Assembly (NCBI GenBank): GCA_017860615.1
Contig: JAGDMU010000001.1
Coordinates: 62,001-126,000 of the forward strand
Direction: 5' to 3'
DNA: 64,000 nt
DNA from: Pseudomonadota bacterium
GTDB taxonomy: Bacteria; Campylobacterota; Campylobacteria; Campylobacterales; Sulfurospirillaceae
The translations under genes and the position numbers were made by a program. Within the stretch, counting starts at the first letter, position 1. Every line of letters begins with the position of its first letter. Under the pieces are notes generated by a model. It was not told where the DNA came from and searched no databases. It saw only the letters and a list, made by a program, of their open reading frames with translations. Of this stretch, positions 6,312-57,388 are shown in pieces.

Positions 6312-7403
6312 TTAGTCTTTGAGCTCTTGATAAATCGTATGGATTTTTTCGATATTTTCACTAAAAAGATCAATTAGCGTAGGGTCAAAGTGTGTTCCTC
6401 TATTGTTTTTAAGAAACTCGTATGCTTTTTCAAAACTCCATGGCGCTTTATAGGGACGAACGGAAATAAGAGCATCAAACACATCGGCAATGGCAACAAT
6501 ACGACCAAAAATAGAGATCTCTTCGCCTTTTTTACCGTGCGGATAACCAGAGCCATCCCATTTTTCATGATGTTCAAGCGCAATAAGTGCGGCAGATTTA
6601 AGGTATTCATTCTCTTCATCAAATAAGAGATCATGCCCTAATTGCGTATGTGTTTTCATTAACTCAAACTCTTCATTACTTAGTTTGTCAGGCTTCAGTA
6701 AGAGTTTATCGGCGATCCCAATTTTACCTGCATCGTGCATGGGAGCAGCGAGTTCTATCTTGGTGATGTCATCATGACTCAGACCATATTTTTCTGCTAA
6801 GAGTGCGCTGTAGAGCCCGACACGTTTGGTATGTTTAGATGTCTCTTGGTCTTTAAATTCCGCAGCAGAAGCGAGTTTGTTGATGATTTTCGTTTGTGTG
6901 TCGCGCAATCTATCGTACAGAATGGCATTTTCGATGGCAGAAGCGGCATAATTTGAAATAAGCAGTAAAAGTTCGGCATCCACATTGGTAAAGATGCCTA
7001 CTTTTTTATTGAGCGCTTGAAAAACACCAATGGTATTTTCTTGGTTATCTAAAAGTGGTACAGAGAGAATCGTGTGTGTTAGATAGCCTGTGACTTTATC
7101 GACGTCAGGATTAAAACGGTAGTCATTGTAAGCATCCACAACGATTTGAGTCTCTTTAGAGAGAGCAGCATAACCAGCAACACCTTTTTTCGTACTAATA
7201 CGAATAGGCTCTGTATCATGTGCTACTTTTGACCAGAGTTCTTCTTTGTATTTATCATACACAAAGATAGAACAGCGATCGGCTTGTAAGATGTCTCGTG
7301 CAAAACGCGCCATAGACTCTAAAACATCATCCAAGCTTTTAGTTTTGTTGATGACTTTACCAAATTCTAATAAAATAGCGAGTTGCTTTTCCGCTGTGTT
7401 CAT
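6312..7403 (-). CDS. GAF domain HD-GYP phosphodiesterase
   Basis: 363 residues, soluble. An N-terminal GAF sensor (about 20-165) is followed by an HD-GYP c-di-GMP phosphodiesterase domain (about 170-340). The catalytic signature is complete: HTKRVG, HDAGKIG, HHEKWDGSGYP and IADVFDAL. It should hydrolyse c-di-GMP in response to a small ligand bound by GAF. It is transcribed toward nifB but ends before the nifB promoter. The next gene upstream is a divergent response regulator starting at 7521. The ligand is not predictable. Confidence 0.9.
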   Translation of the reverse strand: MNTAEKQLAILLEFGKVINKTKSLDDVLESMARFARDILQADRCSIFVYDKYKEELWSKVAHDTEPIRISTKKGVAGYAALSKETQIVVDAYNDYRFNPDVDKVTGYLTHTILSVPLLDNQENTIGVFQALNKKVGIFTNVDAELLLLISNYAASAIENAILYDRLRDTQTKIINKLASAAEFKDQETSKHTKRVGLYSALLAEKYGLSHDDITKIELAAPMHDAGKIGIADKLLLKPDKLSNEEFELMKTHTQLGHDLLFDEENEYLKSAALIALEHHEKWDGSGYPHGKKGEEISIFGRIVAIADVFDALISVRPYKAPWSFEKAYEFLKNNRGTHFDPTLIDLFSENIEKIHTIYQELKD

Positions 7404-7520
7404 GGTCGTCTCTCAAATGGAAGATGTACGTGCATTATAACAAAGTTTTAAAATGTTCTATGCAAAATAAGGTGCTTTATGTATAATACAAAATAATAAA
7501 TGTTTGGAGCGGTTATCAAA

Positions 7521-8189
7521 ATGCAAAAGAAAATTAAAGTCCTTTTAATAGAAGATGACTACGATGCGGCAGGTCAAGTCGCCCAGTATCTTGAAAATGT
7601 AGGTTTTGAACTTGATATTTCTGAAACAGCGGTAGATGGGCTTTTAAAGCTTGCTGCGCAACATTATGATATTTTGTTATTAGACCTAAGCCTTCCTGAT
7701 TTTAGTGGCTTTGAAGTGATTAAACAGATTAACAATCAAAGCAGCATTCCTATTATTGTTTTAAGTTGCCATTCAAACCTTGAGGCTAAAGTTCAAGCGT
7801 TTCGTTTTGGGGTGGATGACTACTTGTGTAAACCATTTATGCTTGAAGAGTTAGAGGTTCGCATGTGGGCAATTTTGAAACGTTGTTCTATGATCAAACT
7901 GGAATTTAATAAAAATAATCTCGCCATTGACTACAACAATCAAACCATTTTGCTCAACCAAAAACCACTCTCTCTCACGGCGATTGAACACAAAATCCTT
8001 TCTTTCCTCATAGAGAACAAAAATAGGGTCGTTTATCGCAATGTTTTGGCGATTCACCTCTCATCTTTAAGCTCTCCTCAGTCTTTGAATTATCATATTC
8101 AAAATATTCGTAAAAAGCTAGGCGATGACCCAAAGAAGCCTCGTTACATTATGACAGAGTATGGAACAGGGTATCGTTTAGTGTTATAA
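7521..8189 (+). CDS. OmpR/PhoB-type response regulator
   Basis: 222 residues. The receiver domain (about 1-120) has the acidic pair EDDY, phospho-acceptor Asp in LLDLSLPDF and the conserved Lys in CKPF. A winged-helix DNA-binding domain follows (about 130-222), ending RYIMTEYGTGYRLVL. I prefer ATG 7521 (MQKKIKVLLIEDD), with GGAG at 7505-7508, over ATG 7500, which has no ribosome site. A TATAAT-like -10 (near 7481) lies upstream. No cognate kinase is directly adjacent; the PAS kinase at 10055 is a candidate. Confidence 0.9.
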   Translation: MQKKIKVLLIEDDYDAAGQVAQYLENVGFELDISETAVDGLLKLAAQHYDILLLDLSLPDFSGFEVIKQINNQSSIPIIVLSCHSNLEAKVQAFRFGVDDYLCKPFMLEELEVRMWAILKRCSMIKLEFNKNNLAIDYNNQTILLNQKPLSLTAIEHKILSFLIENKNRVVYRNVLAIHLSSLSSPQSLNYHIQNIRKKLGDDPKKPRYIMTEYGTGYRLVL

Positions 8190-8285
8190 AAGTGTTACAT
8201 TTCTTATAATCCTCATAAAAAACTGATAATGAACCATTTTTTTGGAGTATAATCAAAAACTTGATCCAAAACTATGAGGAAAATG

Positions 8286-10067
8286 ATGGACACATCAGCA
8301 ATGGAGAGTCTCAAATCTCGTTGTAAAAACATACGAATTTTATACATTGAAGACGATGAGGTTACGAGAAAATATACGCATTCGATTTTAAGCGAATTCT
8401 TTGATTTTGTTGATGTTGCAAGCGATGGACAGAGTGGCTATGATATGTTTGTCGATGCTGAGATTGCTATTCCTCATTTAGGACTTCCACAGTTACTTCA
8501 TACGCAAAAATACAACCTTGTGATTACAGACATTAAAATGCCTAAAATGGATGGCATTGCGCTCATCTCAAAAATTCGTAAAATCTGTAAAGAAACAGCG
8601 ATTATTGTCACATCTGCGCACAATGATGTTGAGTATTTAATCGAGACGATTCGTTTGGGTGTGGATGGCTATATTTTAAAGCCCATTGAACTTGACCAAC
8701 TTTTAGACTCGCTAGCATCAACAGTAGAGACGATTTTACTCAAAGAGGAGCACCGCGCTTATACCAGTTCTTTGAAGCAAACCATTGAATTGCAGCAGTC
8801 TGCTCTTGAGGAGCAACTGCATACGGATGCACTGACCAAACTTCCCAATAAAAACACACTCGATAACATTTTGTCGCAAATTCAGCCTGTTGAAGTCCCC
8901 TCACTTTTCCTCATAAACATTGATAATTTTAAAAATTATAATAAGCTCTATGGTCTTGATGCGGGAAATCAGATATTGCAAGAGTTTGCGTATCACTTAA
9001 AGGCGATTGCTAGCTCTTTGTGTTACGATGTTTTTCGCATCTCATCGAATGAATTTGTCATGTTGCGCCTCGATACGCAGCTAGATCCTGATAAGATTTA
9101 TGAAGACATTACGCAAACGCTTGAAGTACTTAATGGCATTGAGATAAAGATCAAAGGGCTTCATGAAAAAATATTGGTCAATGTCTCCATGGGGGTTACA
9201 TTTGATCAAGAAAACCTCTTTAATAAAGCCTTTACTGCGCTCGATTTTGCCAAACAAACGGGCAAAACCTTTGTTGTTTATACCAGTAATTTAGACGAAA
9301 CAGAATCCCTTGCCAATGACTTTTACTGGCAAGATGTGATTGCCGACACACTCAACAAAGACAATGTGGTGCCATTTTTTCAACCTATTTGTGACAAAAA
9401 TGGGCAGATTATTAAGTACGAAGCATTGATTCGCATTCGTACCAAAGATAAGCTTGAACAAGAGCAATACGTCTCTCCCTACTATTTTTTAGACATTGCA
9501 CGTCGAACCAGACAGTACGACAGCCTAAGTCACAAAATGATTGAGAAAGTCTTGGAAATGATGGTTTTACACCCTACGGTAACGTTTTCGATCAACTTTA
9601 GTTTTAGAGATATGCTTAACAAAGAAATCAGGGATATGGTGCGCTCTAGACTCGTTACAATGCAAGAAGAGAATAAAACAATCAACTTGGTTTTTGAAGT
9701 CGTTGAGAGTGAAAAAATGATCGATATTAATACCATCAAAAACTTTTTAAAATACATCAAATACGAGAATGCACCGATTGCTATTGATGATTTTGGAACA
9801 GGGTATTCTAATTTTTCGCATTTGATGCAGATGAACCCTTCGTATTTAAAAATTGATGGTAGTTTGATTAAAGAGATTGATACGAATGAGAAGACTCTTT
9901 TGCTCGTAAAAGGTATCGTCTCTTTCGCTAAGGCATTGCAGATAAAAACGATTGCAGAGTATGTTCATAACCAGACGATTTTCGATCTTTTGGTTGAAAT
10001 TGGTGTGGATGAGTTTCAAGGGTATTATATTGGCGAGCCATGTTTGGAATTACAATGTCATCTCTAA
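8286..10067 (+). CDS. receiver-GGDEF(degenerate)-EAL c-di-GMP protein
   Basis: 593 residues, three domains. The receiver domain (about 10-140) has ILYIEDDE and phospho-Asp in VITDIKMPKMDG. The GGDEF domain (about 180-310) has SSNEF at the active loop, so it is probably not a cyclase. The EAL domain (about 345-590) has YEALIRIR, DDFGTGYSN, YLKIDGSL, TIAEYV and FQGYYIG, so phosphodiesterase activity is plausible; the usual glutamate motif ELTE is EVVE. ATG 8286 is preceded by GAGGA at 8276-8280; ATG codons at 8274 and 8283 are also in frame. It overlaps the next kinase gene slightly, suggesting one operon 8286-11688. Confidence 0.88.
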   Translation: MDTSAMESLKSRCKNIRILYIEDDEVTRKYTHSILSEFFDFVDVASDGQSGYDMFVDAEIAIPHLGLPQLLHTQKYNLVITDIKMPKMDGIALISKIRKICKETAIIVTSAHNDVEYLIETIRLGVDGYILKPIELDQLLDSLASTVETILLKEEHRAYTSSLKQTIELQQSALEEQLHTDALTKLPNKNTLDNILSQIQPVEVPSLFLINIDNFKNYNKLYGLDAGNQILQEFAYHLKAIASSLCYDVFRISSNEFVMLRLDTQLDPDKIYEDITQTLEVLNGIEIKIKGLHEKILVNVSMGVTFDQENLFNKAFTALDFAKQTGKTFVVYTSNLDETESLANDFYWQDVIADTLNKDNVVPFFQPICDKNGQIIKYEALIRIRTKDKLEQEQYVSPYYFLDIARRTRQYDSLSHKMIEKVLEMMVLHPTVTFSINFSFRDMLNKEIRDMVRSRLVTMQEENKTINLVFEVVESEKMIDINTIKNFLKYIKYENAPIAIDDFGTGYSNFSHLMQMNPSYLKIDGSLIKEIDTNEKTLLLVKGIVSFAKALQIKTIAEYVHNQTIFDLLVEIGVDEFQGYYIGEPCLELQCHL

Positions 10068-11269
10068 CGCCAACGAGTATCCTACTTGGTTTAGGCATTA
10101 TCCTCTTGTTAGGCATCATGTGGATATACCTGCTTTTAAAACAGCGTCAAAAATTTAAACAGCTCATTGATTTTGCGATTGAAGGTATGGTCATTTCACA
10201 CAAAGGATGTGTGGTTGAAATCAATGCGCAAGCACTGAAAATTTTTGGTGGAACCGATAAGCAAGAAATCCTTGGAAAATCCATGTTTGATTTTATCGCG
10301 CCTGAGTCAAAAGCGTTGGTTCAAGAACAATCAACAAAGCGGCATACTGAAATGTATGAGTGTATGCTTTTGCGCAAAAATGGAACCATTTTTCCAGCAC
10401 TTGTGAGAGGCTCTAACGTAGAGGGATTTGGAAAGTCTATGCGTGTTTCTGCCATCATTGATCTTAGTGAGTTAAAAGAAGCACAATACGCACTGCAAGC
10501 ACTCAATGGCAACTTAGAGATGCAAGTGCAAGCTCAAATTGAAAAAAATCGTCAACAAGAGATGATGCTTTTTCAACAATCTCGCCATGCACAAATGGGC
10601 GAGATGATCAGTATGATAGCCCATCAATGGCGCCAACCGCTTAATGTCCTTTCACTTTTAGCTCAAAATATTGTCTTTAAATACAAACTCCATAAACTCG
10701 ATGATCCTGTAATGGATGAGTTTAAAGAGGATTCAATGCGCCAGATTTTGCAGATGTCCAAAACCATTGATGATTTTAGAGACTTTTTTAAACCCGATAA
10801 ATCAATCAAAATTTTTGATGTAAAACAACAACTAGCCCATGCGGTTGAGATGGTCAAACCCATTGTGGCAGGTCATGGGATTGAACTCTCTTTTCAAGCC
10901 GAAGATGGTTTAAAAGTTGAGAGTTTCCCCAATGAATTTGGCCAGTCTATTATCAATATTCTTAACAATGCCAAAGATGTGCTTTTGGAGAGTTGTGGAG
11001 ATCATAGTAAACAGATTGTTGTTGAGGCAAAACGAGGGGACAATTCCGAAGTTATCGTGAGCATTGAAGATAATGGTGGGGGCATTGATACAATTGTCAT
11101 GCCTTATATTTTTGAGCCTTATTTTTCAACTAAAGGTGCAAAACATGGTACAGGATTGGGACTTTATATGACAAAGATTATTGTCGAAGAGCATATGCAT
11201 GGTCGCATTAGTGTTGTAAATACCACTACAGGTGCAAGATTTCAGATTGTTTTACAAGGGTTAATATAA
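10055..11269 (+). CDS. PAS-domain sensor histidine kinase
   Basis: 404 residues. One N-terminal transmembrane helix (about residues 10-30), a PAS domain (about 35-150), a coiled coil, then the phosphoacceptor helix with MGEMISMIAHQWRQPLN (His in AHQWRQP). This helix type is very common in campylobacterotal kinases. The ATPase domain has NILNNAKDV (N box), EDNGGGI (G1) and GTGLGLYMTK (G2). The start at 10055 has GGA nearby; ATG 10040 is a longer alternative. Its stop overlaps the ATG of the following receiver by one base, so the two are coupled. Confidence 0.9.
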   Translation: MSSLTPTSILLGLGIILLLGIMWIYLLLKQRQKFKQLIDFAIEGMVISHKGCVVEINAQALKIFGGTDKQEILGKSMFDFIAPESKALVQEQSTKRHTEMYECMLLRKNGTIFPALVRGSNVEGFGKSMRVSAIIDLSELKEAQYALQALNGNLEMQVQAQIEKNRQQEMMLFQQSRHAQMGEMISMIAHQWRQPLNVLSLLAQNIVFKYKLHKLDDPVMDEFKEDSMRQILQMSKTIDDFRDFFKPDKSIKIFDVKQQLAHAVEMVKPIVAGHGIELSFQAEDGLKVESFPNEFGQSIINILNNAKDVLLESCGDHSKQIVVEAKRGDNSEVIVSIEDNGGGIDTIVMPYIFEPYFSTKGAKHGTGLGLYMTKIIVEEHMHGRISVVNTTTGARFQIVLQGLI

Positions 11270-11688
11270 TGGATTTGAGTTTACTAAAAGACATTCGTCC
11301 TTTGATTATTGAAGATGACCCTGATGTTATGAATTCATTATTTTCAATTTTTGATACCGTTTTTGATATCTTTTACACGGCACGCAATGGGGAAGAGGGG
11401 TTGTATCGGTTTTATAAAGAGAGTCCCGATATTATCATCACCGATTTGCAAATGCCTTTTATGGGTGGTTTCCGTATGCTAGATCGTATTCGTATGGAAA
11501 CTAAAATTATTCCTATCATCGTTACATCCGCACATAGTTCTAAAGAGCAGTTTGAAAAGGCAGATGAACTTAATGTCAATGCCTATCTCGTTAAACCTTA
11601 CGACATGGATACGCTCTTTGAAAAAATTTATGAGTGTTGTTATATCCAAACATTACAAAAGATCGATCTCAACGAATTTACCGTTTAA
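11269..11688 (+). CDS. stand-alone receiver-domain protein
   Basis: 139 residues, a single CheY-like receiver with LIIEDDPD, phospho-Asp in IIITDLQMPFMGG, T in VTSAHS and the conserved Lys in LVKPYD. There is no output domain, so it probably relays a phosphoryl group or acts by protein contact. It is translationally coupled to the upstream PAS kinase (TAATG). Its last 36 bases overlap antisense with the end of the flavodiiron protein gene. Confidence 0.88.
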   Translation: MDLSLLKDIRPLIIEDDPDVMNSLFSIFDTVFDIFYTARNGEEGLYRFYKESPDIIITDLQMPFMGGFRMLDRIRMETKIIPIIVTSAHSSKEQFEKADELNVNAYLVKPYDMDTLFEKIYECCYIQTLQKIDLNEFTV

Positions 11689-13849: not shown

Positions 13850-15196
13850 ATGGTAAATAGAAAACTGATCAAGGATTTGTTAAACGAGAGTGCTTGTTCT
13901 CATAACAAAACCAAAAAAGCGAGCTGTGATAAACCGAAACCTGGAGCGACGAGTGGAGGGTGTGCGTTTGAGGGAGCGCAAATATCACTTTTTCCTTATG
14001 CTGACGCTGTGCATTTGGTGCATGGTCCAGACACTTGTCTTGGCGCTTCATGGGAAACCAGAGCTACGCTTACAAGCTATGAAGGTGAAAACAACACACC
14101 ATTAGGCTATTGCACCAATGTCACGACACAAGACATCATCTTTGGTGGTGACAAGAAGCTTGCTGATGCATTGGCGTACATTGTAGAGCATAAAAAGCCT
14201 AAGGCGATTTTTGTCTATGAAACCTGTGTAACAGCGATGATCGGAGATAACATTGACTATACGTGCAAGACCGCGGAAGAGCTGTTTCACATTCCTATTG
14301 TGCCTGTACATTCGCCAGGTTTTGTGGGGAGTAAAAATTTAGGGTCACGCCTTGCAGGTGAAGCGGTGCTGGACGCGCTTGTGGGAACACGTGAACCAGA
14401 ATTCATTCATCCCTTTGGTATTAACTTGATCGGTGATTATAACGTCACGGGCGATATGTGGCAGTACAAGCCTATACTTGAACGTATTGGCATCAAAGTC
14501 ATCTCCTCACTCTCGGGTGATGGCAGAATCGAGCAGATACAAATGGCACACACTGCAAAGCTCAATGTCATTGTCTGTGCGAAATCCTTAGTCACCTTGT
14601 GTCGTAAAATGCAAGAACGCTACAACATCCCTTATGTCAGCGTCTCATTTTACGGTAAACGTGACACGTCCAATGCGATTCGTTCTATCGTCAACGCGTT
14701 TGGCGATGCGGAATTGATCGCCAAAGCCGAAACGATTATCGCCGAAGAAGAGGCGAAATTGGCGGAGCGTTTGAGGCCATACCATCTGATGCTCAAAGGC
14801 AAAAAAGCCATTCTGAACACGGGCGGTAATAAGTCGTGGTCGATCGCCTCAGCACTTCAAGACATCGGCATCGAAGTGGTCGCAACCTGTGTTCAAAAAG
14901 CAACGGAAGAAGATGTGGCGATAGCGAGTGAATATGTGCCCATCGTCTTTAAAAACCCAGGTGTTGAACAACCTCGTCTCATTGATGAGCACAAGGTGGA
15001 CATTTTGTTGGCGGGTGGGAGAAGTCTTTACACGGCGATTAAAAAGCGCATTGCCTTTGTCGATGTCAATCAAGAGAAAAAAGTAAGTTATGGTGCATAT
15101 GGTGGGCTTGAAAATTTGGCGAGCGATGTCTGTTCAGCTCTTGCAAATCCTGTCTTTAAACTGGTTGGAAAGGCTGCACCATGGGAGCTAGTATGA
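13850..15196 (+). CDS. nifE: nitrogenase FeMo-cofactor scaffold NifE
   Basis: 448 residues. NifE pairs with NifN in the scaffold where NifB-co is converted to FeMo-cofactor. The N-terminus is typical: DLLNESACSHNKTKKASC, then KPGATSGGCAFEGAQISL and HGPDTCLGASWETR. NifE-type cysteines and ETCVTAMIGDNI follow. ATG 13850 is the only suitable start that keeps the family N-terminus, yet no ribosome-binding site precedes it and the promoter -12 is 12 bases upstream. It overlaps nifN by 4 bp. Confidence 0.96.
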   Translation: MVNRKLIKDLLNESACSHNKTKKASCDKPKPGATSGGCAFEGAQISLFPYADAVHLVHGPDTCLGASWETRATLTSYEGENNTPLGYCTNVTTQDIIFGGDKKLADALAYIVEHKKPKAIFVYETCVTAMIGDNIDYTCKTAEELFHIPIVPVHSPGFVGSKNLGSRLAGEAVLDALVGTREPEFIHPFGINLIGDYNVTGDMWQYKPILERIGIKVISSLSGDGRIEQIQMAHTAKLNVIVCAKSLVTLCRKMQERYNIPYVSVSFYGKRDTSNAIRSIVNAFGDAELIAKAETIIAEEEAKLAERLRPYHLMLKGKKAILNTGGNKSWSIASALQDIGIEVVATCVQKATEEDVAIASEYVPIVFKNPGVEQPRLIDEHKVDILLAGGRSLYTAIKKRIAFVDVNQEKKVSYGAYGGLENLASDVCSALANPVFKLVGKAAPWELV

Positions 15197-16473
15197 ATTT
15201 AAAAGAGCTTAGAACAACGAGCATAAAACCTTTACATGTAAACCCTCTCAAGCTCTCTCAGCCGATGGGTGCGACACTCGCATTTTTGGGCATTAAAAAC
15301 TGTATGCCTTTGATGCACGGAGCGCAAGGGTGCGCTTCGTTTACGAAGGTACTTTTTACAAGGCACTTTAACGATCCTATCGCCATTCAAACCACCGCGG
15401 TCAATGACATTACCGCCGTCATCGATGGCGGTGATAAAGGCATCTCCGAAGCGGTTGAAAACATCACCAAAAAAGTAACACCCGATCTGGTGGGTCTTTT
15501 TACGACGGGTATGACCGAGACCAAAGGCGATGACATCAAAGGCGCAACGCTTCTTTTGAAAGAGAAGCAAAAGATGGTCTATGTGCATACACCTGATTTT
15601 GAAGGAGGGCTGGAGAGTGGATGGAGTTTGAGCGTTCAAAACATCATATCGCAACTCATAGAGCCAACCACACAGATACGAAAAGATAAGGTGTTGGTTA
15701 TTCCTAATGTCAACCTAAGCCCCATAGAAGTTGAAAAGCTTAAAGAGGCGTTAGAACTTATGGACTTTGATGTGCTCGCTTTACCCGATCTTAGTGATTC
15801 ACTCGATGGGCATTTAGGTGTGAAACAAGGCGCACTGAGCAGTGGTGGCATTAGTGTCTCTGAGATCGAAAAACTGGGAGATGCTGGGCTTGTTATGAGC
15901 ATTGGACGTTCAGTCAAAAAATGTGGAGAGATGTTTCATGAGAAGTTCCCTCAAAGTACACATCTGCATTTTGATAGCCTAATAGGGCTGGAAGCTTGTG
16001 ATGCGTTTTACGCGCAGGTACTGAATTATCTTGGAAGTAAAAGTGTTCCTAGTGTTGTTAAACGATGGCGCGCACGTCTTCAAGATGTGCTTTTAGACAC
16101 CCATTTTACCCTTGGAAAAGCAAAAATTGTCATTGCCGATGAACCTGATAGTGTTTATGGTATGAGCAAAGCATTGCAAGAGGTTGGGGCGAGTGTCGAA
16201 GCGTTTATATCACAACGCAGTGAGATTCAAGATGCCTTTACGTGCGGTGTGCGCATAGGAGACTTTGAGGATGTGGAAGCGTTACTGCCTCAGATGGATA
16301 TGATCATCGCCAATTTTCATGCGGAAAGACTAGCCCATAAGCATCATAAAGCACTGCTCATTCGCGGATTTCCAAACTATGAGCAAGTCGGTATTGGGCT
16401 TCGACATAACATTTTGTATGAAGGCAGTTGCGCCTTTTTATGCGAGGTGAATAATCTTTTAGGACATCAATGA
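15193..16473 (+). CDS. nifN: nitrogenase FeMo-cofactor scaffold NifN
   Basis: 426 residues, the beta-like partner of NifE. Signature segments are NPLKLSQPMGATLAFLGI, HGAQGCASFTKVLFTRHF and TTGMTETKGDDIKG. It is shorter than NifK because the NifK N-terminal extension is absent, as usual for NifN. ATG 15193 is chosen because GGGAG lies at 15183-15187 and the ATG overlaps the nifE stop (ATGA); ATG 15181 would have no such site. A homocysteine methyltransferase follows after 32 bp. Confidence 0.95.
   Translation: MNLKELRTTSIKPLHVNPLKLSQPMGATLAFLGIKNCMPLMHGAQGCASFTKVLFTRHFNDPIAIQTTAVNDITAVIDGGDKGISEAVENITKKVTPDLVGLFTTGMTETKGDDIKGATLLLKEKQKMVYVHTPDFEGGLESGWSLSVQNIISQLIEPTTQIRKDKVLVIPNVNLSPIEVEKLKEALELMDFDVLALPDLSDSLDGHLGVKQGALSSGGISVSEIEKLGDAGLVMSIGRSVKKCGEMFHEKFPQSTHLHFDSLIGLEACDAFYAQVLNYLGSKSVPSVVKRWRARLQDVLLDTHFTLGKAKIVIADEPDSVYGMSKALQEVGASVEAFISQRSEIQDAFTCGVRIGDFEDVEALLPQMDMIIANFHAERLAHKHHKALLIRGFPNYEQVGIGLRHNILYEGSCAFLCEVNNLLGHQ
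15231..15242. repeat. TTTACATGTAAA palindrome (in nifN)
   Basis: Perfect 12-bp palindrome near the nifN 5' end. Eight perfect copies occur in this window, against about 0.02 expected from base composition; 10-bp cores occur at 2976 and 27141, and 9/10 matches at 5977, 42450 and 60215. Confidence 0.7.
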
Positions 16474-17475: not shown

Positions 17476-18000
17476 TTACGCGGGATTGCTCGCAGCCGCA
17501 GCTGCGGCTGCCATTGCGGTTGCTTTTTTCTTACTGCGTTCCATGGATTGAAGTACTAAGTATTGCTCTCCAAATTTGAGCATATTTTCCATCTCATCAT
17601 CAAACTCAGCATAGTGTCCTTCTTCTTCAAGCACAAGTTCTTCAAACAGTTTTTTACTGACGCTATCGGCGTTGTTTCCACACTCAATGGCAAAGTTGTT
17701 GTACGTGACAACGGCATCTTCTTCGCTTTGACGCGCGAACTCAAGCATCGCTTTCACATCGGTGATCTGTTTCACCTCTTCAGAGGCTTTCATCTCGATC
17801 GTTCCTTTTAAGAAAAGCACACGATCGGCAAGGCGTTCTATGTGAAGCATCTCGGCAATGGCGGTGCGCTTAAACAGGGTTGAGAGTAGGTCGTAGCCTT
17901 GGTCATCACAGTGGAAATGTAAAAACATGTATTGGTGGACGGCTGAGAGTTCATCTGCAATCGCACGGTTGAGTAACTCGATACTTTTATCTCTTTTCAT
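17476..18000 (-). CDS. bfr: bacterioferritin
   Basis: 174 residues. A four-helix ferritin-like iron-storage protein. Ferroxidase-type residues are visible in ADELSAVHQY, AEMLHIERL and EEEGHYAEF, and a Met in AEML corresponds to the haem-ligand Met of bacterioferritin. An unusual alanine-rich tail (seven consecutive Ala near the end) extends past the normal helix bundle. ATG 18000 has GGAG seven bases upstream; ATG 18015 does not. Lying between nif blocks, it could supply or buffer iron for nitrogenase, but no nif-type promoter is seen for it. Confidence 0.88.
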   Translation of the reverse strand: MKRDKSIELLNRAIADELSAVHQYMFLHFHCDDQGYDLLSTLFKRTAIAEMLHIERLADRVLFLKGTIEMKASEEVKQITDVKAMLEFARQSEEDAVVTYNNFAIECGNNADSVSKKLFEELVLEEEGHYAEFDDEMENMLKFGEQYLVLQSMERSKKKATAMAAAAAAASNPA

Positions 18001-18067
18001 AGAACACTCCTTCAAAAAATTTCTCTAAATAGTACCATAAAATAGGCTTTTAAATAATTTTTTCTAC

Positions 18068-18081
18068 GGAACACTTCTTGT
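18068..18081 (+). promoter_or_regulatory. sigma54-type promoter of the Cache-CheW gene
   Basis: CTACGGAACACTTCTTGT: GG at 18068-18069, GT at 18080-18081, N10 spacing. The predicted transcript start is about 40 bases before ATG 18134. The sequence is nearly identical to the nifX promoter at 22600. Confidence 0.75.
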
Positions 18082-18133
18082 ATAGGTTGAAAAAACTGCC
18101 TTCTTAAATCTACCATGAAGGAACATGAAATCC

Positions 18134-20650
18134 ATGCCTGAACAAAGCCATACTGAGCATTACAATGCGTATATCCCTGAAGTTGTTGCTTATCAAAAGT
18201 CACTCGATCAACTCTCTGAGCGATGGAACTTACTTTCCCTTTTAGGACAGATGAGCAACATTGGTATGGACATTTCTGAAACCAGACAGGCATTTAGCAA
18301 TCTCTCTGAACAGCTCTTGCAACGCCTTTGCGAAGAAACGGTGAAAAAGCTCGCGACGGAGTTGGGTGCTAAGGCGCAAGTCGCTATCGACATCTTAATC
18401 CGCAATCTCTTTGAACGCACGGCAGACATAGGCTTTTTAGCGATGGATACCATCATCTGTGACTTTGCAAAAAAAAGCAAAGAGGAGCAAAAAAGCGCAC
18501 TTCCATCCTTGCAAAACCGTTTTCATGAGTACATCGAAAAGTACAGTGTTTACAGCGATGTGTTGTTATTTGATCTTGAAGGCACACTGATCGCTTCAAC
18601 CCAAGATACCAAAATAGGCAAGAAGATAGAGAGTGCTTTTATCTACGAAGCAATGCATACGTCACAAGAGTATGTGGAGAGTTTTGGCATCTACCCACTG
18701 GTCAGTGAAAAAGAGAGCTTGTTGTACAGCTATCGTGTCTGCGATGCAAGTAATACGCCCCTTGCCGTGTTGTGTCTTGTGTTCAAATTTCAAGATGAAA
18801 TGCGTGTCATCATCTCCAATCTCATTGAAAACGAGACATGGGCGGACATTCTTTTGTTGGATGAAAACAATCGTACGATTTACAGCAGTGACCCGTTTCA
18901 TTACGCTCTTGGAGCACCTCAAAAAACAGCACTGAAAAGCTTTGATATCGTCCCTTTCTCTGGTGCAGAATATGTAGCGAAAACACAATCCACCAAAGGG
19001 TATCAAGGCTTTTACGGGCTTGGATGGATGGGACATGCATTGATGCCTTTGGCGTTTGCTTTTCATCAAAAACAAGCCCATGTGCCTTTTACGGAAGAAC
19101 AGATCAAGATCATCAAAAACTCTTCACTTTTTTCAGAGGAGTTCACCAGCATTCCCACCAAAGCAGAAGCGATTCAAAGACGCCTTGATATGACCATTTG
19201 GAACGGTAATGTGCAAATCGCTAATCAAAAAAGTGGCGACAACTCCTTTTCAAAGTCGCTTCTCAATGAAATCTCTCGCACAGGTGCACAAACCAAAAAA
19301 ACCTTTGAAGAGTCCATCGGCAATCTTAACTGGACGGTAGTCGCCTCGTTCATCAATGATGCGAGTTTTAACGCCAAGCTTGCCATAGACATTATGGATA
19401 GAAATCTCTACGAGCGTGCGAATGACTGTCGGTGGTGGGCACTCAGTCCTGTGTTCATTAAAGCGTTTAGCGCAAAATTCAAAGAGTTTACGAGCATTCG
19501 CAAAGAGTTTGGACATGAAATCACCGAAGTGCTCAGTGCCATCAATGCCCTTTATACGGTTTACAGCAATCTCTTTTTATTTGATGCACAAGGCTGTGTT
19601 ATAGCCGTAAGTCAAGAAAAATACGCACATCTTATTGGAAAGCGCATTGGAGCGCATTACATCGCTCAAACGCTGGCACTGAAAAGTTCCAAAGAGTATG
19701 TGGTCAGTCCGTTTGAAAAAACAGAACTTTACGATGGAAAATATACGTACATTTACAGTGCGCCTATCTTTATTGAAGGATTTAAAGAGGCACAAGGGGG
19801 TATTGGTATTGTCTTTGATGCTGAGGTGCAATTTGAAGCGATGCTAAGTGATGTTGTAGGCAATGATGAACGCTCTTTCGCTCTTTTTATAGAGAGTAAA
19901 ACCAACAGCGTGATCGCTTCGACCAACCCAATGATTGGCATTGGTGAGCGATGTGTCTTTTGCGACTCTTCTGAAAACATGGTGTTGATTAAAGATGAGT
20001 ACTTCATCATTGGTAAAGGCAAATCTCAGGGTTACCGAGAGTTTAAATGCAGTGATGGCTACTGCAATGATGTAACTGCCATAGTTTGCATCAAAATCGC
20101 AAACAAAGAAGCATGTGTCACTGATGAAACACCAAAAAATGGTAAAAAACAGTATCTTTACCCGCGTGTTGGGGCATCGGAAAAGACGGTTGAGCTTTCA
20201 ACGTTTTGGATGAATGGCACACTCTTTGCCATAGAAAGCCAGCAAATTTACGCAGCCCTTGAAGGGCAAGATGTCACGCAGGTGATTGGGTGTGATGAAA
20301 TCTATGTAGGTATGATTACGTGGAATAACAAAACCATACCCGTAGCATCTCTAGCTAAGTACTTCCACCATAACATCGCATATGATAAAGAACGCCATCA
20401 TATCGTTGTTCTAAAAGGCAGTGAAGAGAAGCCCTTTGGCTTGGTCATCGACATGGTTCAAGACAGCCCTGAAGTGCCTTTGCGTTGCATTGATGAAACC
20501 AGCCAAGCGATGATGGGTCAGCATACGCTTACCAAAGCCATCGTCAAATCGGATATGGGACAAGAAAAGGCGGAGATGCTCTCTATTCTTGATCCTCTTA
20601 AAATCGAAAAGTATTTACACATGGAAAAACAATCCCAAATCGTAAAGTGA
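18134..20650 (+). CDS. soluble double-Cache-like protein with C-terminal CheW domain
   Basis: 838 residues with no signal peptide, no transmembrane helix and no MCP or kinase domain. Two related sensor-like modules are visible: about 60-260 containing AIDILIRNLFERTAD, and about 385-600 containing AIDIMDRNLYERAND. Each continues into a Cache/PDC-like strand pattern (VLLFDLEGTLIAST; LFLFDAQGCVIAVS). Between module 2 and CheW is a cysteine cluster: CVFC near 605, CSDGYC near 638, then two more Cys. Residues about 685-830 are CheW-like (VELSTFWMNGTLFAIES, GMITWNNKTIPVASL). ATG 18134 has AAGGAA at 18118-18123; ATG 18125 is too close to it. The nif-type promoter suggests expression with nitrogenase. 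Coupling to chemotaxis is inference. Confidence 0.75.
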   Translation: MPEQSHTEHYNAYIPEVVAYQKSLDQLSERWNLLSLLGQMSNIGMDISETRQAFSNLSEQLLQRLCEETVKKLATELGAKAQVAIDILIRNLFERTADIGFLAMDTIICDFAKKSKEEQKSALPSLQNRFHEYIEKYSVYSDVLLFDLEGTLIASTQDTKIGKKIESAFIYEAMHTSQEYVESFGIYPLVSEKESLLYSYRVCDASNTPLAVLCLVFKFQDEMRVIISNLIENETWADILLLDENNRTIYSSDPFHYALGAPQKTALKSFDIVPFSGAEYVAKTQSTKGYQGFYGLGWMGHALMPLAFAFHQKQAHVPFTEEQIKIIKNSSLFSEEFTSIPTKAEAIQRRLDMTIWNGNVQIANQKSGDNSFSKSLLNEISRTGAQTKKTFEESIGNLNWTVVASFINDASFNAKLAIDIMDRNLYERANDCRWWALSPVFIKAFSAKFKEFTSIRKEFGHEITEVLSAINALYTVYSNLFLFDAQGCVIAVSQEKYAHLIGKRIGAHYIAQTLALKSSKEYVVSPFEKTELYDGKYTYIYSAPIFIEGFKEAQGGIGIVFDAEVQFEAMLSDVVGNDERSFALFIESKTNSVIASTNPMIGIGERCVFCDSSENMVLIKDEYFIIGKGKSQGYREFKCSDGYCNDVTAIVCIKIANKEACVTDETPKNGKKQYLYPRVGASEKTVELSTFWMNGTLFAIESQQIYAALEGQDVTQVIGCDEIYVGMITWNNKTIPVASLAKYFHHNIAYDKERHHIVVLKGSEEKPFGLVIDMVQDSPEVPLRCIDETSQAMMGQHTLTKAIVKSDMGQEKAEMLSILDPLKIEKYLHMEKQSQIVK

Positions 20651-22599: not shown

Positions 22600-22613
22600 G
22601 GAACACTTCTTGT
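22600..22613 (+). promoter_or_regulatory. sigma54-type promoter of the nifX operon
   Basis: CAACGGAACACTTCTTGT: GG at 22600-22601, GT at 22612-22613, N10 spacing, 38 bases before the nifX ATG. It shares GGAACACTTCTTGTA with the 18068 site. Confidence 0.75.
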
Positions 22614-22651: not shown

Positions 22652-23008
22652 ATGGTCAAGGTAGCGTTTTTTACAAACGATCTCAAAAACATTGATGCCC
22701 ATTTTGGCTCAGGAGAGCAATTTGCCGTGTATGACGTGGGTGCAACAGGGTTTAATCTCCTCGAAGTTGTGCAAACAGGCGAAGAGCGAACCGAAGGTAG
22801 AGTTGAGATGTTACAGCATGAAAATGTTGACATTATGTACTGTGTCGAAATTGGACCAGCTGCTGCGGCAAAAGTCGTCAACAGTCGAATCTTTCCTATC
22901 AAATACAAAGAAGTGGTGAGCATTGAAGCAGAGCTGAATAAGCTTCAAAATATGATCGCAACCAATCCTCCTCCGTTTATCAAAAAAATCTTAGAAGCCA
23001 GAGGATAA
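22652..23008 (+). CDS. nifX: nitrogenase cofactor carrier NifX
   Basis: 118 residues. NifX carries NifB-co and the later precursor between NifB and NifEN. The N-terminus MVKVAFFTNDLKNIDAHFGSGEQFAVYDV has the family HFG, and the tail PPPFIKKILEARG is typical of NifX. GGAGG lies at 22639-22643. It is the first gene of a seven-gene plus-strand operon; the next gene starts 4 bp later. Confidence 0.93.
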   Translation: MVKVAFFTNDLKNIDAHFGSGEQFAVYDVGATGFNLLEVVQTGEERTEGRVEMLQHENVDIMYCVEIGPAAAAKVVNSRIFPIKYKEVVSIEAELNKLQNMIATNPPPFIKKILEARG

Positions 23009-23012
23009 GGCT

Positions 23013-23444
23013 ATGAATGAACTTGAAAAGTTGTTCATCGAAACACTGACCTCTCAGATCAGGGCGCTTGACCAGTTTGGTACTTGGGCGAAGAAGAGTG
23101 ATGAAGAAATTTTGTCCGAGAAATATGTTAAGACCAAAGAGCAACTTAAAAACGTTCCTATTATCGCGGACATTGATGAGATGCAGATCAAAGATATTCG
23201 GCTGATTTTTCAGTCCATCGCATTGGCTTTCGAGCTTAAAACGAGTGTTATGTGTTCTGTTGTGATGGAGATGAGTCACGAAGGATTTGGACGTGCTGTG
23301 GTTTTGGCAGAGAAGATTGTTGTGACTAACAAGTTTTTCAAAGACGCGCATCGTTACAGTTTTAGAACGTATGAGGATCTTATTAAAGAGGGCGGAAAGA
23401 TGTTAAAAGATGCTCTCGACATTTATGAAACCTATAAAAAATAA
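23013..23444 (+). CDS. NifX-associated nitrogen fixation protein (DUF269)
   Basis: 143 residues, matching the DUF269 NifX-associated family in length and pattern (ELEKLFIETLTSQIRALDQFGTWAKKSD near the start, VVLAEKIVVTNKFFKDAHRYSF later). Members almost always sit next to nifX, as here. The biochemical role is not established; a helper in cofactor transfer is assumed. It is soluble with no cysteine motif. Confidence 0.9.
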   Translation: MNELEKLFIETLTSQIRALDQFGTWAKKSDEEILSEKYVKTKEQLKNVPIIADIDEMQIKDIRLIFQSIALAFELKTSVMCSVVMEMSHEGFGRAVVLAEKIVVTNKFFKDAHRYSFRTYEDLIKEGGKMLKDALDIYETYKK

Positions 23445-44755: not shown

Positions 44756-45895
44756 TTAACGTACACAGTTTCGACCAGCATCTTTGGCAAGATAGAGCTT
44801 TTCATCGGCTTGAATGTAAAGTTCATCAAATCGTTTAATCTCTGGACCACTCATCGCAAAACCAATGCTTACGGTAAAACTGAGTGTTTCACCATTTGGT
44901 AGCGTTACAGGAAATGCACTGAGTTCATGGCACAATGCTTCTAACTTTGCTTTTGCTTGTTCTTGCGTGATATGCAGGAGTAAAAATGCAAATTCTTCGC
45001 CACCCAAACGCCCTACAATGTCAGTATCACGCAAACTATGTTGAAAATAGCTTGCAATGGCTTGAAGTACAGCATCACCCGCAGGATGTCCAAAGGTGTC
45101 GTTGATCTGTTTAAAATGGTCAATATCAAGAATGGCAAAACAGATGGATTTGTCATAACGTAAAGCACGATGAAGTTCTCTTTCTGCTTCTTTCAGAAAG
45201 TGCCCGCGGTTGTAGAGTTTCGTTAGAGGATCCGTTTGCGCAAGGTATTGTAGTTCTTTTTCAAGTACTTTTCGTCTGTCTATCTCTTCTTTGAGGAGAA
45301 TTTGCTCAAAGCAAAGCGCTTCATGGGTTTGTGTTGATTCTTTTTGGAAACGAGAACGATGGTATTCAATCCAACTGCTAATCGTTGTGACCATCAGATA
45401 AGAGATACAAAAGCGCACTTGAAAAGGGATTTGGTACATGGTGTGTATCTTAGGGACAAAGAGAAAAAGCCCAATAATCATAGCCAAAAACAGACAACTC
45501 CAGAAAAAGCCTATGCGATTTCCCAGTAAAAAGATAATGCCTAACGGATAACAATAAGCCCATAAAATGCGTGATTGTTCTGTGTCAGCATAGATGGTAT
45601 ACACTAACAAAGAAACAAGAATGAGATTGGCAGTGTGGTAAAGAAAATAGGTCTTATTTGTTTTTTGGATGAGCAGAAGTGTAACCAGCAAATAGAATGA
45701 AAAAAATGTAATACCACCTGCAATGATAAATTCATGCTTCAAACTATTATAGATGCCAAGTCCCATAGCAAGTGGCAAAATCATCAGCGTAACCCAAACG
45801 TAGTGATTGAGTCTAGCAAGTTCATCTTTATTTTGTGAGGGAGACTTTGCAACGATAAGATCTACAATATACTGGAGTTTCGCAAGTGTAAGCAT
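44756..45895 (-). CDS. membrane diguanylate cyclase (GGDEF)
   Basis: 379 residues. Six predicted transmembrane helices (about 30-180), a short coiled coil, then GGDEF (about 210-379) with an intact active site written as GGEEF (VGRLGGEEFAFLL) and DIDHFKQINDTFGHPAGD. It should make c-di-GMP. No RxxD inhibitory site is obvious. It is a tandem paralogue of the gene at 46012, sharing nearly the same N-terminus, helices and the C-terminal NAGRNCV-type ending. Confidence 0.92.
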   Translation of the reverse strand: MLTLAKLQYIVDLIVAKSPSQNKDELARLNHYVWVTLMILPLAMGLGIYNSLKHEFIIAGGITFFSFYLLVTLLLIQKTNKTYFLYHTANLILVSLLVYTIYADTEQSRILWAYCYPLGIIFLLGNRIGFFWSCLFLAMIIGLFLFVPKIHTMYQIPFQVRFCISYLMVTTISSWIEYHRSRFQKESTQTHEALCFEQILLKEEIDRRKVLEKELQYLAQTDPLTKLYNRGHFLKEAERELHRALRYDKSICFAILDIDHFKQINDTFGHPAGDAVLQAIASYFQHSLRDTDIVGRLGGEEFAFLLLHITQEQAKAKLEALCHELSAFPVTLPNGETLSFTVSIGFAMSGPEIKRFDELYIQADEKLYLAKDAGRNCVR

Positions 45896-46011
45896 TTATC
45901 TTCTTTGTGATGAAATATAACAATTGTAAATTATCTTAGCTTGTTTATCTTTAAAAAATAGCAAGCAAGTATGTAAGCGAGAAAAAGGAGGGCAAAGACT
46001 TTTGAAATGCG

Positions 46012-47136
46012 TTAACATACGCAGTTACGTCCTGCATTTTTTGCTTCGTAGAGTTTTTCATCGGCTTGGATGTAAAGTTCATCAAAGTGTTTTATAGAAG
46101 GAGTATAGAGCGCTAACCCAATACTGACTGTGACACTCAGTGTTTTTCCACCATCATAGGGCACTTTGATTTCGCTGATTTCACGTCTTAGTGTGTCCAT
46201 CTTGATTCTAGCTTCATCAGCGTTTACATGTAAAAGTAAAAAAGCGAACTCTTCACCGCCTAGGCGTGCTACAAGATCTGTTTCTCGCACGTTAAGAAGG
46301 CAGTGTTTTGCTATAGCTTGCAGTACAACATCGCCTACAGGATGCCCATAGGTGTCATTGATGCATTTAAAATGGTCAATATCTAGGATTGCCAAACAGA
46401 TAGAAGTGTTATAACGTTGGGCACGATTGAGCTCTTTTTCGGCTGATTCGAAGAAGTAACCTCGGTTGTATAAAGAGGTGAGCGGGTCGGTTTTGGCGAG
46501 TCGTTGAAGCTCTTTTTCCAGTATCTTGCGTCTTTCGATCTCTTCATTGAGTAATTTTTGCTCTAACAAAAGCGCTTGATGCGAGCGTGAGCCGTGGTAT
46601 TCCACCCAACTACTAATAATTGCTACAACAAGATACGAAATACCAAAACGTACTTGAAAAGGGATGCTATAGATCGTGTGAATTTCAGGAACAACAAGAA
46701 AAAGCCCGATAATCATGCCTAAGAGTAAACAGCTCCATAAAAAGCCAAGGCGATGTCCAAATAAAAAGATGATGCCAACAGGATAGATGTAAGCCCAAAG
46801 AATGCGAGAGTTTTCTGAGTCAGCATGAAACACCATGTAAAGAATCAAAAAAGCATAAAGAAGATTGGCGCCATGATAGAGCAGATACGTCTTTTGGATG
46901 GTGGGGATCAGAAACAGTGAGCCAACCATATGCCCTGAAAAAAGTATGATCAAAAAGGCTAACGCATAATTGTTGATGTAGGCATTATAAGCGCCTGAAC
47001 ACAGGGCAACAGGCAACATCAAAAGAGCGATCCACACATAATGATTGAGCCTAAATATTTCTTCTTCATTCTGTGAAAGTGACTTAGCAACAATGAGATC
47101 AACAAGATGTTGAATTTTTTTAGCCAATGTAAGCAT
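46012..47136 (-). CDS. membrane diguanylate cyclase (GGDEF), tandem paralogue
   Basis: 374 residues with the same architecture as the gene at 44756: membrane domain (about 30-175), then GGDEF with ARLGGEEFAFLL and DIDHFKCINDTYGHPVGD. The two begin MLTLAK and share runs such as IPFQVRF, RLNHYVW and FDELYIQADEKLY. They are separated by 116 bp. This looks like a recent local duplication. Confidence 0.92.
   Translation of the reverse strand: MLTLAKKIQHLVDLIVAKSLSQNEEEIFRLNHYVWIALLMLPVALCSGAYNAYINNYALAFLIILFSGHMVGSLFLIPTIQKTYLLYHGANLLYAFLILYMVFHADSENSRILWAYIYPVGIIFLFGHRLGFLWSCLLLGMIIGLFLVVPEIHTIYSIPFQVRFGISYLVVAIISSWVEYHGSRSHQALLLEQKLLNEEIERRKILEKELQRLAKTDPLTSLYNRGYFFESAEKELNRAQRYNTSICLAILDIDHFKCINDTYGHPVGDVVLQAIAKHCLLNVRETDLVARLGGEEFAFLLLHVNADEARIKMDTLRREISEIKVPYDGGKTLSVTVSIGLALYTPSIKHFDELYIQADEKLYEAKNAGRNCVC
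46223..46234. repeat. TTTACATGTAAA palindrome (inside a GGDEF gene)
   Basis: Perfect copy within the GGDEF coding region of the 46012 gene; absent at the corresponding place in its paralogue. Context GCGTTTACATGTAAAAG is identical to that of the copy at 63459. Confidence 0.7.

Positions 47137-56147: not shown

Positions 56148-57388
<1,241 letters not shown>

Follow-up and report, generated by a model that had tools for sequence, protein, structure and literature searches.

Organization of the locus

The window, the 64,000-nt stretch of DNA analysed here, covers the nif cluster of a Sulfurospirillum-like genome, with nifV-like, nifB, nifE, nifN, nifX, nifH and rpoN genes. A single ORF of 841 aa (window 18125-20650, + strand) follows a GG-N10-GT site at 18068 (cGGAACACTTCTTGTa). 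On one side it is flanked by a nifE-nifN-mmuM run and a bacterioferritin-like gene, and on the other by an MscS-type gene and then nifX. No MCP, CheA or flagellar gene adjoins it in the 64,000-nt window. The product has a Cache-Cache-CheW organization (gene to be referred to as CCW). The features of the locus are listed below.

13850-16473, + strand: nifE and nifN, upstream neighbours (NCBIfam); in the S. cavolei clade they are directly 5' of the CCW gene
18065-18082, + strand: sigma54-like -24/-12 element CTACGGAACACTTCTTGT, about 53-66 bases 5' of the start codon
18134-20650, + strand: Cache-Cache-CheW coding sequence from its likely start
18275-19051, + strand: module 1, long helix and dCache fold, residues 51-309 (predicted structure, structure search)
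19244-20104, + strand: module 2, long helix and dCache fold, residues 374-660 (predicted structure, structure search, profiles, conservation)
19952-20116, + strand: Cys-rich stretch with C610, C613, C642, C647, C655 and C664, Sulfurospirillum only (conservation counts)
20180-20635, + strand: CheW-like domain, residues 686-837 (Pfam PF01584, structure search, alignment)
22652-23444, + strand: nifX and NifX-associated gene, downstream neighbours (NCBIfam), with the same promoter element as the CCW gene

The longest ORF begins at 18125. The start at 18134 is likely, since orthologues align from Met4 and the AAGGA at 18118-18122 is better spaced for the ATG at 18134 than for the ORF start.

Three other features of the window are recorded here. 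The bacterioferritin-like gene (17476-18015) is divergent from the CCW gene, and several Sulfurospirillum genomes also have it close by. A group of genes (6312-11688) separates nifB from the nif ferredoxin operon and encodes a GAF/HD-GYP protein, an OmpR-type regulator, a REC-GGDEF-EAL protein, a PAS kinase and a receiver protein, a set that suggests c-di-GMP signalling close to nif. Two similar proteins of 379 and 374 aa are encoded side by side at 44756-47136, a tandem duplication, and proteins like this pair are also located beside several distant members of the CCW family.

A putative promoter element shared with nif genes

The element upstream of the CCW gene fits the GG-N10-G(C/T) spacing of sigma54 promoters, and is a putative promoter of this type. 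The 16-base ACGGAACACTTCTTGT is present in the same sequence 5' of the CCW gene and 5' of nifX (GG at 22600), in agreement with the likeness to the nifX promoter pointed out in a preliminary description of this DNA. Near-copies are located before the fdx/NifX-like operon (13763, - strand) and nifH (56422, + strand). Exact matches to the degenerate form ACGGAACACTNNNTGY are limited to four in the 2.79-Mb genome, at the CCW gene, nifX, the fdx/NifX-like operon and nifH, all of them 5' of nif-cluster genes, in support of the nif-type promoter that had been proposed. Judged by its sequence, the CCW gene shares the sigma54-type promoter element of the nif regulon.

A general sigma54 matrix was rejected, as it failed to rank the nif promoters of the window; the GGAAC-type form did rank them. 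The longest nifH ORF (56324-57388) is over-extended: the promoter element at 56422 falls inside it, and nifH must therefore start further in.

Two dCache modules without a membrane helix

The structure of the CCW protein was predicted from 63 aligned family members (mean pLDDT 87.8); the structure search barely covered the N-terminal helices and the inter-module linker. In the predicted structure both modules have the dCache fold, a long N-terminal helix followed by two PAS-like subdomains. Both match the sensor domain of DctB, module 1 with a Z score of 17.0 (211 residues, rmsd 2.4) and module 2 with a Z score of 16.7 (212 residues, rmsd 2.1). The fold is also shared with Campylobacter Tlp1 (Z 15.3) and Tlp3 (Z 13.9). 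These sensors, however, are extracytoplasmic and flanked by membrane helices, whereas the modules here are arranged in tandem and the flanking helices typical of extracytoplasmic dCache sensors are absent. No membrane helix is found in the CCW protein, with a maximum 19-residue hydropathy of 1.32. Cache domains are mostly, but not all, extracellular (78%; PMC4822843).

The two modules are homologous to each other (profile-profile probability 99.4, E 5.8e-21), and are a true internal duplication. The pair of sequences by which the repeat had originally been recognized, RNLFERTAD (residues 93-101) and RNLYERAND (residues 426-434), mark this duplication. Residues of the module 1 motif RNLFERTADIGFLA (residues 93-106) are kept in 131-134 of 135 sequences; module 2 carries MDRNLYERANDCRWWAL (residues 424-440) and YREFK (residues 637-641). 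The best-conserved parts of the family are the C-terminal ends of the two long helices, with RNL(F/Y)ERTAD and RNLYERANDCRWWAL, and YRE(Y/F)K. The Pfam model dCache_1 (PF02743) gives 30.4 bits for the window protein, against a cut-off of 45; two relatives, L056 (55.8) and L088 (45.7), are above it. The single-Cache model Cache_WalK scores just above its own Pfam cut-off.

A modified CheW-like domain

The C-terminal domain matches CheW (PF01584) at residues 693-827 with 50 bits, compared to the Pfam cut-off of 23.5. CheW structures match its fold at Z scores of 15.6-17.0, the best being 2qdl (Z 17.0, 140 residues, rmsd 2.5). No Pfam match to an MCP signalling tip, a kinase domain or a Response_reg receiver is found in the window protein. 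The soluble Cache-Cache-CheW architecture of the preliminary description is supported.

The domain is like CheW in fold and Pfam family. It differs from CheW in being fused to sensors, in its conserved PEV/PEI loop, and in the loss of the NLRG motif of subdomain 1 (DLRG in CheV), which is replaced by ITWNNK in the window protein. In an alignment that included CheA, the CheW and CheV proteins of the same genome have NLRG, and all sampled relatives lack it. This replacement across the sampled family counts against a plain CheW role. Among the relatives, conservation is strong in the Cache modules, and most CheW positions are variable. CheV likewise joins a CheW domain to an input or modulating domain; in CCW, two dCache modules are found instead of the receiver domain.

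Cysteine residues

The CVFC (residues 610-613) and CSDGYC (residues 642-647) motifs are present in the window protein, and had been proposed to bind a metal or sense oxygen. Within Sulfurospirillum (n = 20), Cys is found at position 610 in 20 sequences, 613 in 18, 642 in 16, 647 in 11, 655 in 20 and 664 in 14. The corresponding counts outside the genus (n = 115) are 1, 0, 1, 0, 2 and 4, so that the four positions of the two motifs have Cys in at most 1 of 115 sequences each. The cluster is real in this protein but is not conserved in the family.

Another candidate, Cys435, appeared invariant at first (88/88), and the count became 129/135 once loci not found by motif were added; some relatives have Ala, Ser or Val here, and the idea of a redox mechanism based on this Cys was abandoned as a result.

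Distribution and variants of the family

Relatives were found as at least 580 stretches in one-genome-per-species data, with full-length members in Campylobacterota, Beta- and Gammaproteobacteria, Deferribacterota, Thermodesulfobacteriota and Verrucomicrobiota, and none in the plasmid collection. The first 80 loci were found partly with the motif as the search pattern.

Several Campylobacterota have versions of 617-674 aa that lack the CheW-like domain (L016-L022, L155). Those with strong similarity are in nif-positive genomes, all with CheA. Downstream of one of them (L019:1483-4413), at a distance of about 25 bp, is a CheV gene (CheW and receiver), an arrangement as if the CheW domain were supplied in trans.

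The Cache-Cache-CheW architecture appears to be undescribed: no account of Cache-CheW proteins in nif clusters was found in the literature searched, which was mostly outside subscription papers, and none of the Azoarcus BH72 nif-cluster genes could be matched to the family from text descriptions.

Co-occurrence with nif and CheA

In the first family search, 42 of 49 carrier genomes had a NifE-type match and all 49 had CheA, scored here and below by its dimerisation domain. As this sample had been chosen by similarity, two even draws of genomes were made.

Among 298 Campylobacterota genomes, the gene is present in 30, nifE in 44 and both in 27 (Fisher p 1e-23; about 2e-18 without the genus of the window, with a slight excess remaining in the last cell). 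Genomes are not independent, as both of these values and the Burkholderiales value below assume them to be, and the genus-level figure is safer (overlap 13/14, p 3e-7). Carriers with the gene far from nif are still nif-positive (e.g. G454, G460, G509, G537, G545). Among 250 Burkholderiales genomes, drawn as the order of the Rhodocyclus genome G072, there are 29 carriers and 39 nif-positive genomes, with 16 in both groups compared to 4.5 expected (p 1e-7); the other 13 of the 29 carriers are without nif.

CheA is also present in 32/32 tested Campylobacterota genomes with the gene or a relative, and hence in all 81 family-bearing genomes tested (one genome may be counted twice). For nif-positive Campylobacterota, CheA is found in 27/27 carriers versus 9/17 non-carriers (p 1.4e-4). 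With CheA constant in carriers and nif tracked, the gene behaves as if it needs both.

The gene is often located beside nifE-nifN or nif ferredoxins. Outside Sulfurospirillum, nif genes are within 10 kb of it in 14 loci (L042, L057, L059, L060, L063, L068, L070, L074, L076, L080, L081, L088, L091 and L099), and nif-linked members are scattered at several separate places in the family tree. In the S. cavolei clade (L025-L028) the order is nifE-nifN-CCW, with gaps of about 20-45 bp. As a control, counted by eye, the listed CheA matches are all more than 10 kb from the listed nifE/nifD-type matches (about 12-13 kb for the nearest), versus 10/50 family loci within that distance.

Sigma54-like sites upstream of relatives

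The regions upstream of family genes were scanned with one fixed consensus, allowing at most one mismatch. Sites were found for 19 of 59 genes, compared to 0.87 expected from shuffles, two sites on the opposite strand and 4% of other genes. In a second sample, fetched without a motif search, 12 of 40 genes have a site (0.35 expected; one on the opposite strand). All 12 are Burkholderiales genes, some without nif, so sigma54 control there is wider than nitrogen fixation. Upstream of six Burkholderiales genes from nif-negative genomes (L124, L126, L128, L131, L132, L135) the site is found at about 45-65 bases from the start, a hint of a function outside nif, in nitrogen or stress. The CCW gene of L060 and L063 is about 0.3 kb 5' of nifE, which has its own sigma54-like site. 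No clear site was found upstream of family genes in the sampled loci of Campylobacterota outside Sulfurospirillum.

The earlier interpretation is thus partly supported. It was right in outline: a link between chemotaxis and diazotrophy agrees with nif in 27/30 Campylobacterota carriers, the constant presence of CheA, the recurrent nif linkage and the nifE-nifN-CCW order. It was incorrect about the Cys cluster, and went too far in having the protein act only when nif genes are on. That statement holds at best for Sulfurospirillum, in view of the other Campylobacterota genes without a sigma54-like site and the nif-less Burkholderiales carriers. Location mostly outside nif clusters had been named as evidence against the link; many relatives are indeed away from nif, but the Campylobacterota genomes that carry them are nearly always nif-positive.

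Proposed function and alternatives

It is reasonably probable that the CCW protein serves motile diazotrophs as a sensory adaptor in the cytoplasm. It would be expressed when the nif regulon is on. A small molecule inside the cell may be the ligand of its Cache modules, perhaps a carboxylate in view of their DctB/CitA-like fold, and the ligand state would alter the docking of the CheW-like domain on CheA or in the array. Cells would then swim preferentially toward sites favourable for N2 fixation, depending on their internal metabolic or energy state. The CheV gene after the CheW-less relative was counted in favour of this function. Counted against it were the CheW-less versions in several nif-positive Campylobacterota, the loss of NLRG, the Burkholderiales carriers without nif, the Campylobacterota loci outside Sulfurospirillum without a clear sigma54-like site, and the partly motif-derived first 80 loci.

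The closest analogue, as described in PMC6406031 and PMC8561660, is the soluble PAS chemoreceptor AerC (Xie et al. 2010) from Azospirillum brasilense. By these accounts AerC is also soluble, has PAS-related sensing modules, is tied to nitrogen fixation and feeds into chemotaxis, and is required for aerotaxis under nitrogen fixation and dispensable with an organic nitrogen source (PMC6406031). As described there, AerC is a chemoreceptor in its own right, with FAD bound in PAS domains, whereas CCW has dCache-fold modules and a CheW end and lacks an MCP tip. The mode of action would be similar, with an adaptor instead of a receptor with its own signalling tip. In Azoarcus, motility genes are up under N2 fixation (PMC8467165).

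The signal could also run in the reverse direction, with the Cache modules sensing a nif-related metabolite and CheA or another kinase adjusting nif or RpoN-dependent functions rather than swimming. In A. brasilense, mutation of CheA affects RpoN, NifA and growth on N2 (PMC8561660), CheW-less relatives are present in nif-positive genomes, and no MCP, CheA or flagellar gene adjoins CCW in the window. The presence of CheA in all carriers, versus about half of the tested nif-positive non-carriers, is simplest with a chemotaxis output, although the same pattern would be expected of a CheA employed in nif control; we consider this direction unlikely. Alternatively, the CheW-like domain may have ceased to dock on chemotaxis proteins, and may mediate binding to some other protein, such as one of nitrogenase maturation or redox supply. 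The ITWNNK replacement, the variable CheW positions next to conserved Cache modules, and the frequent proximity to nifE-nifN or nif ferredoxins would fit such a role, but the strength of the fold match, CheA in 81/81 family-bearing genomes versus 9/17 nif-positive genomes without a member, and the CheV gene after one CheW-less copy make it distinctly improbable.

Co-occurrence could also arise with no functional link, from common ancestry or from hitchhiking with nif islands, since related genomes are not independent and part of the linkage lies inside one genus. On the other hand, the overlap persists at the genus level, nif is retained in carriers with a distant gene, nif-linked members are scattered in the tree and sigma54-like sites recur, and this explanation is very unlikely. 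Hardly any weight is left for the Cys cluster as a metal or oxygen sensor: C610 and C655 are kept in the whole genus, but C613, C642 and C647 vary even there, four of the positions are almost never Cys elsewhere, and the near-invariant Cys435 is itself replaced in some relatives.

For the broader proposal the chances are about even: a widespread family of cytoplasmic double-dCache adaptors, dedicated to diazotrophy, that would bring an internal metabolite reading into the array during nitrogenase production, with a modified CheW domain docking in its own way. Nitrogenase is oxygen-sensitive and costly, and motile diazotrophs therefore gain by steering on their internal state. Through the CCW protein, cells probably do so while fixing nitrogen. 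To our knowledge, links between taxis and nitrogen fixation are limited to isolated cases such as AerC. If the adaptor function is correct, a family that tracks nif and CheA in Campylobacterota and overlaps nif in Burkholderiales would turn this link into a general one that could be tested in Sulfurospirillum or Rhodocyclus. The family would also be one of cytoplasmic Cache sensors, with a ligand that ordinary binding screens could find.
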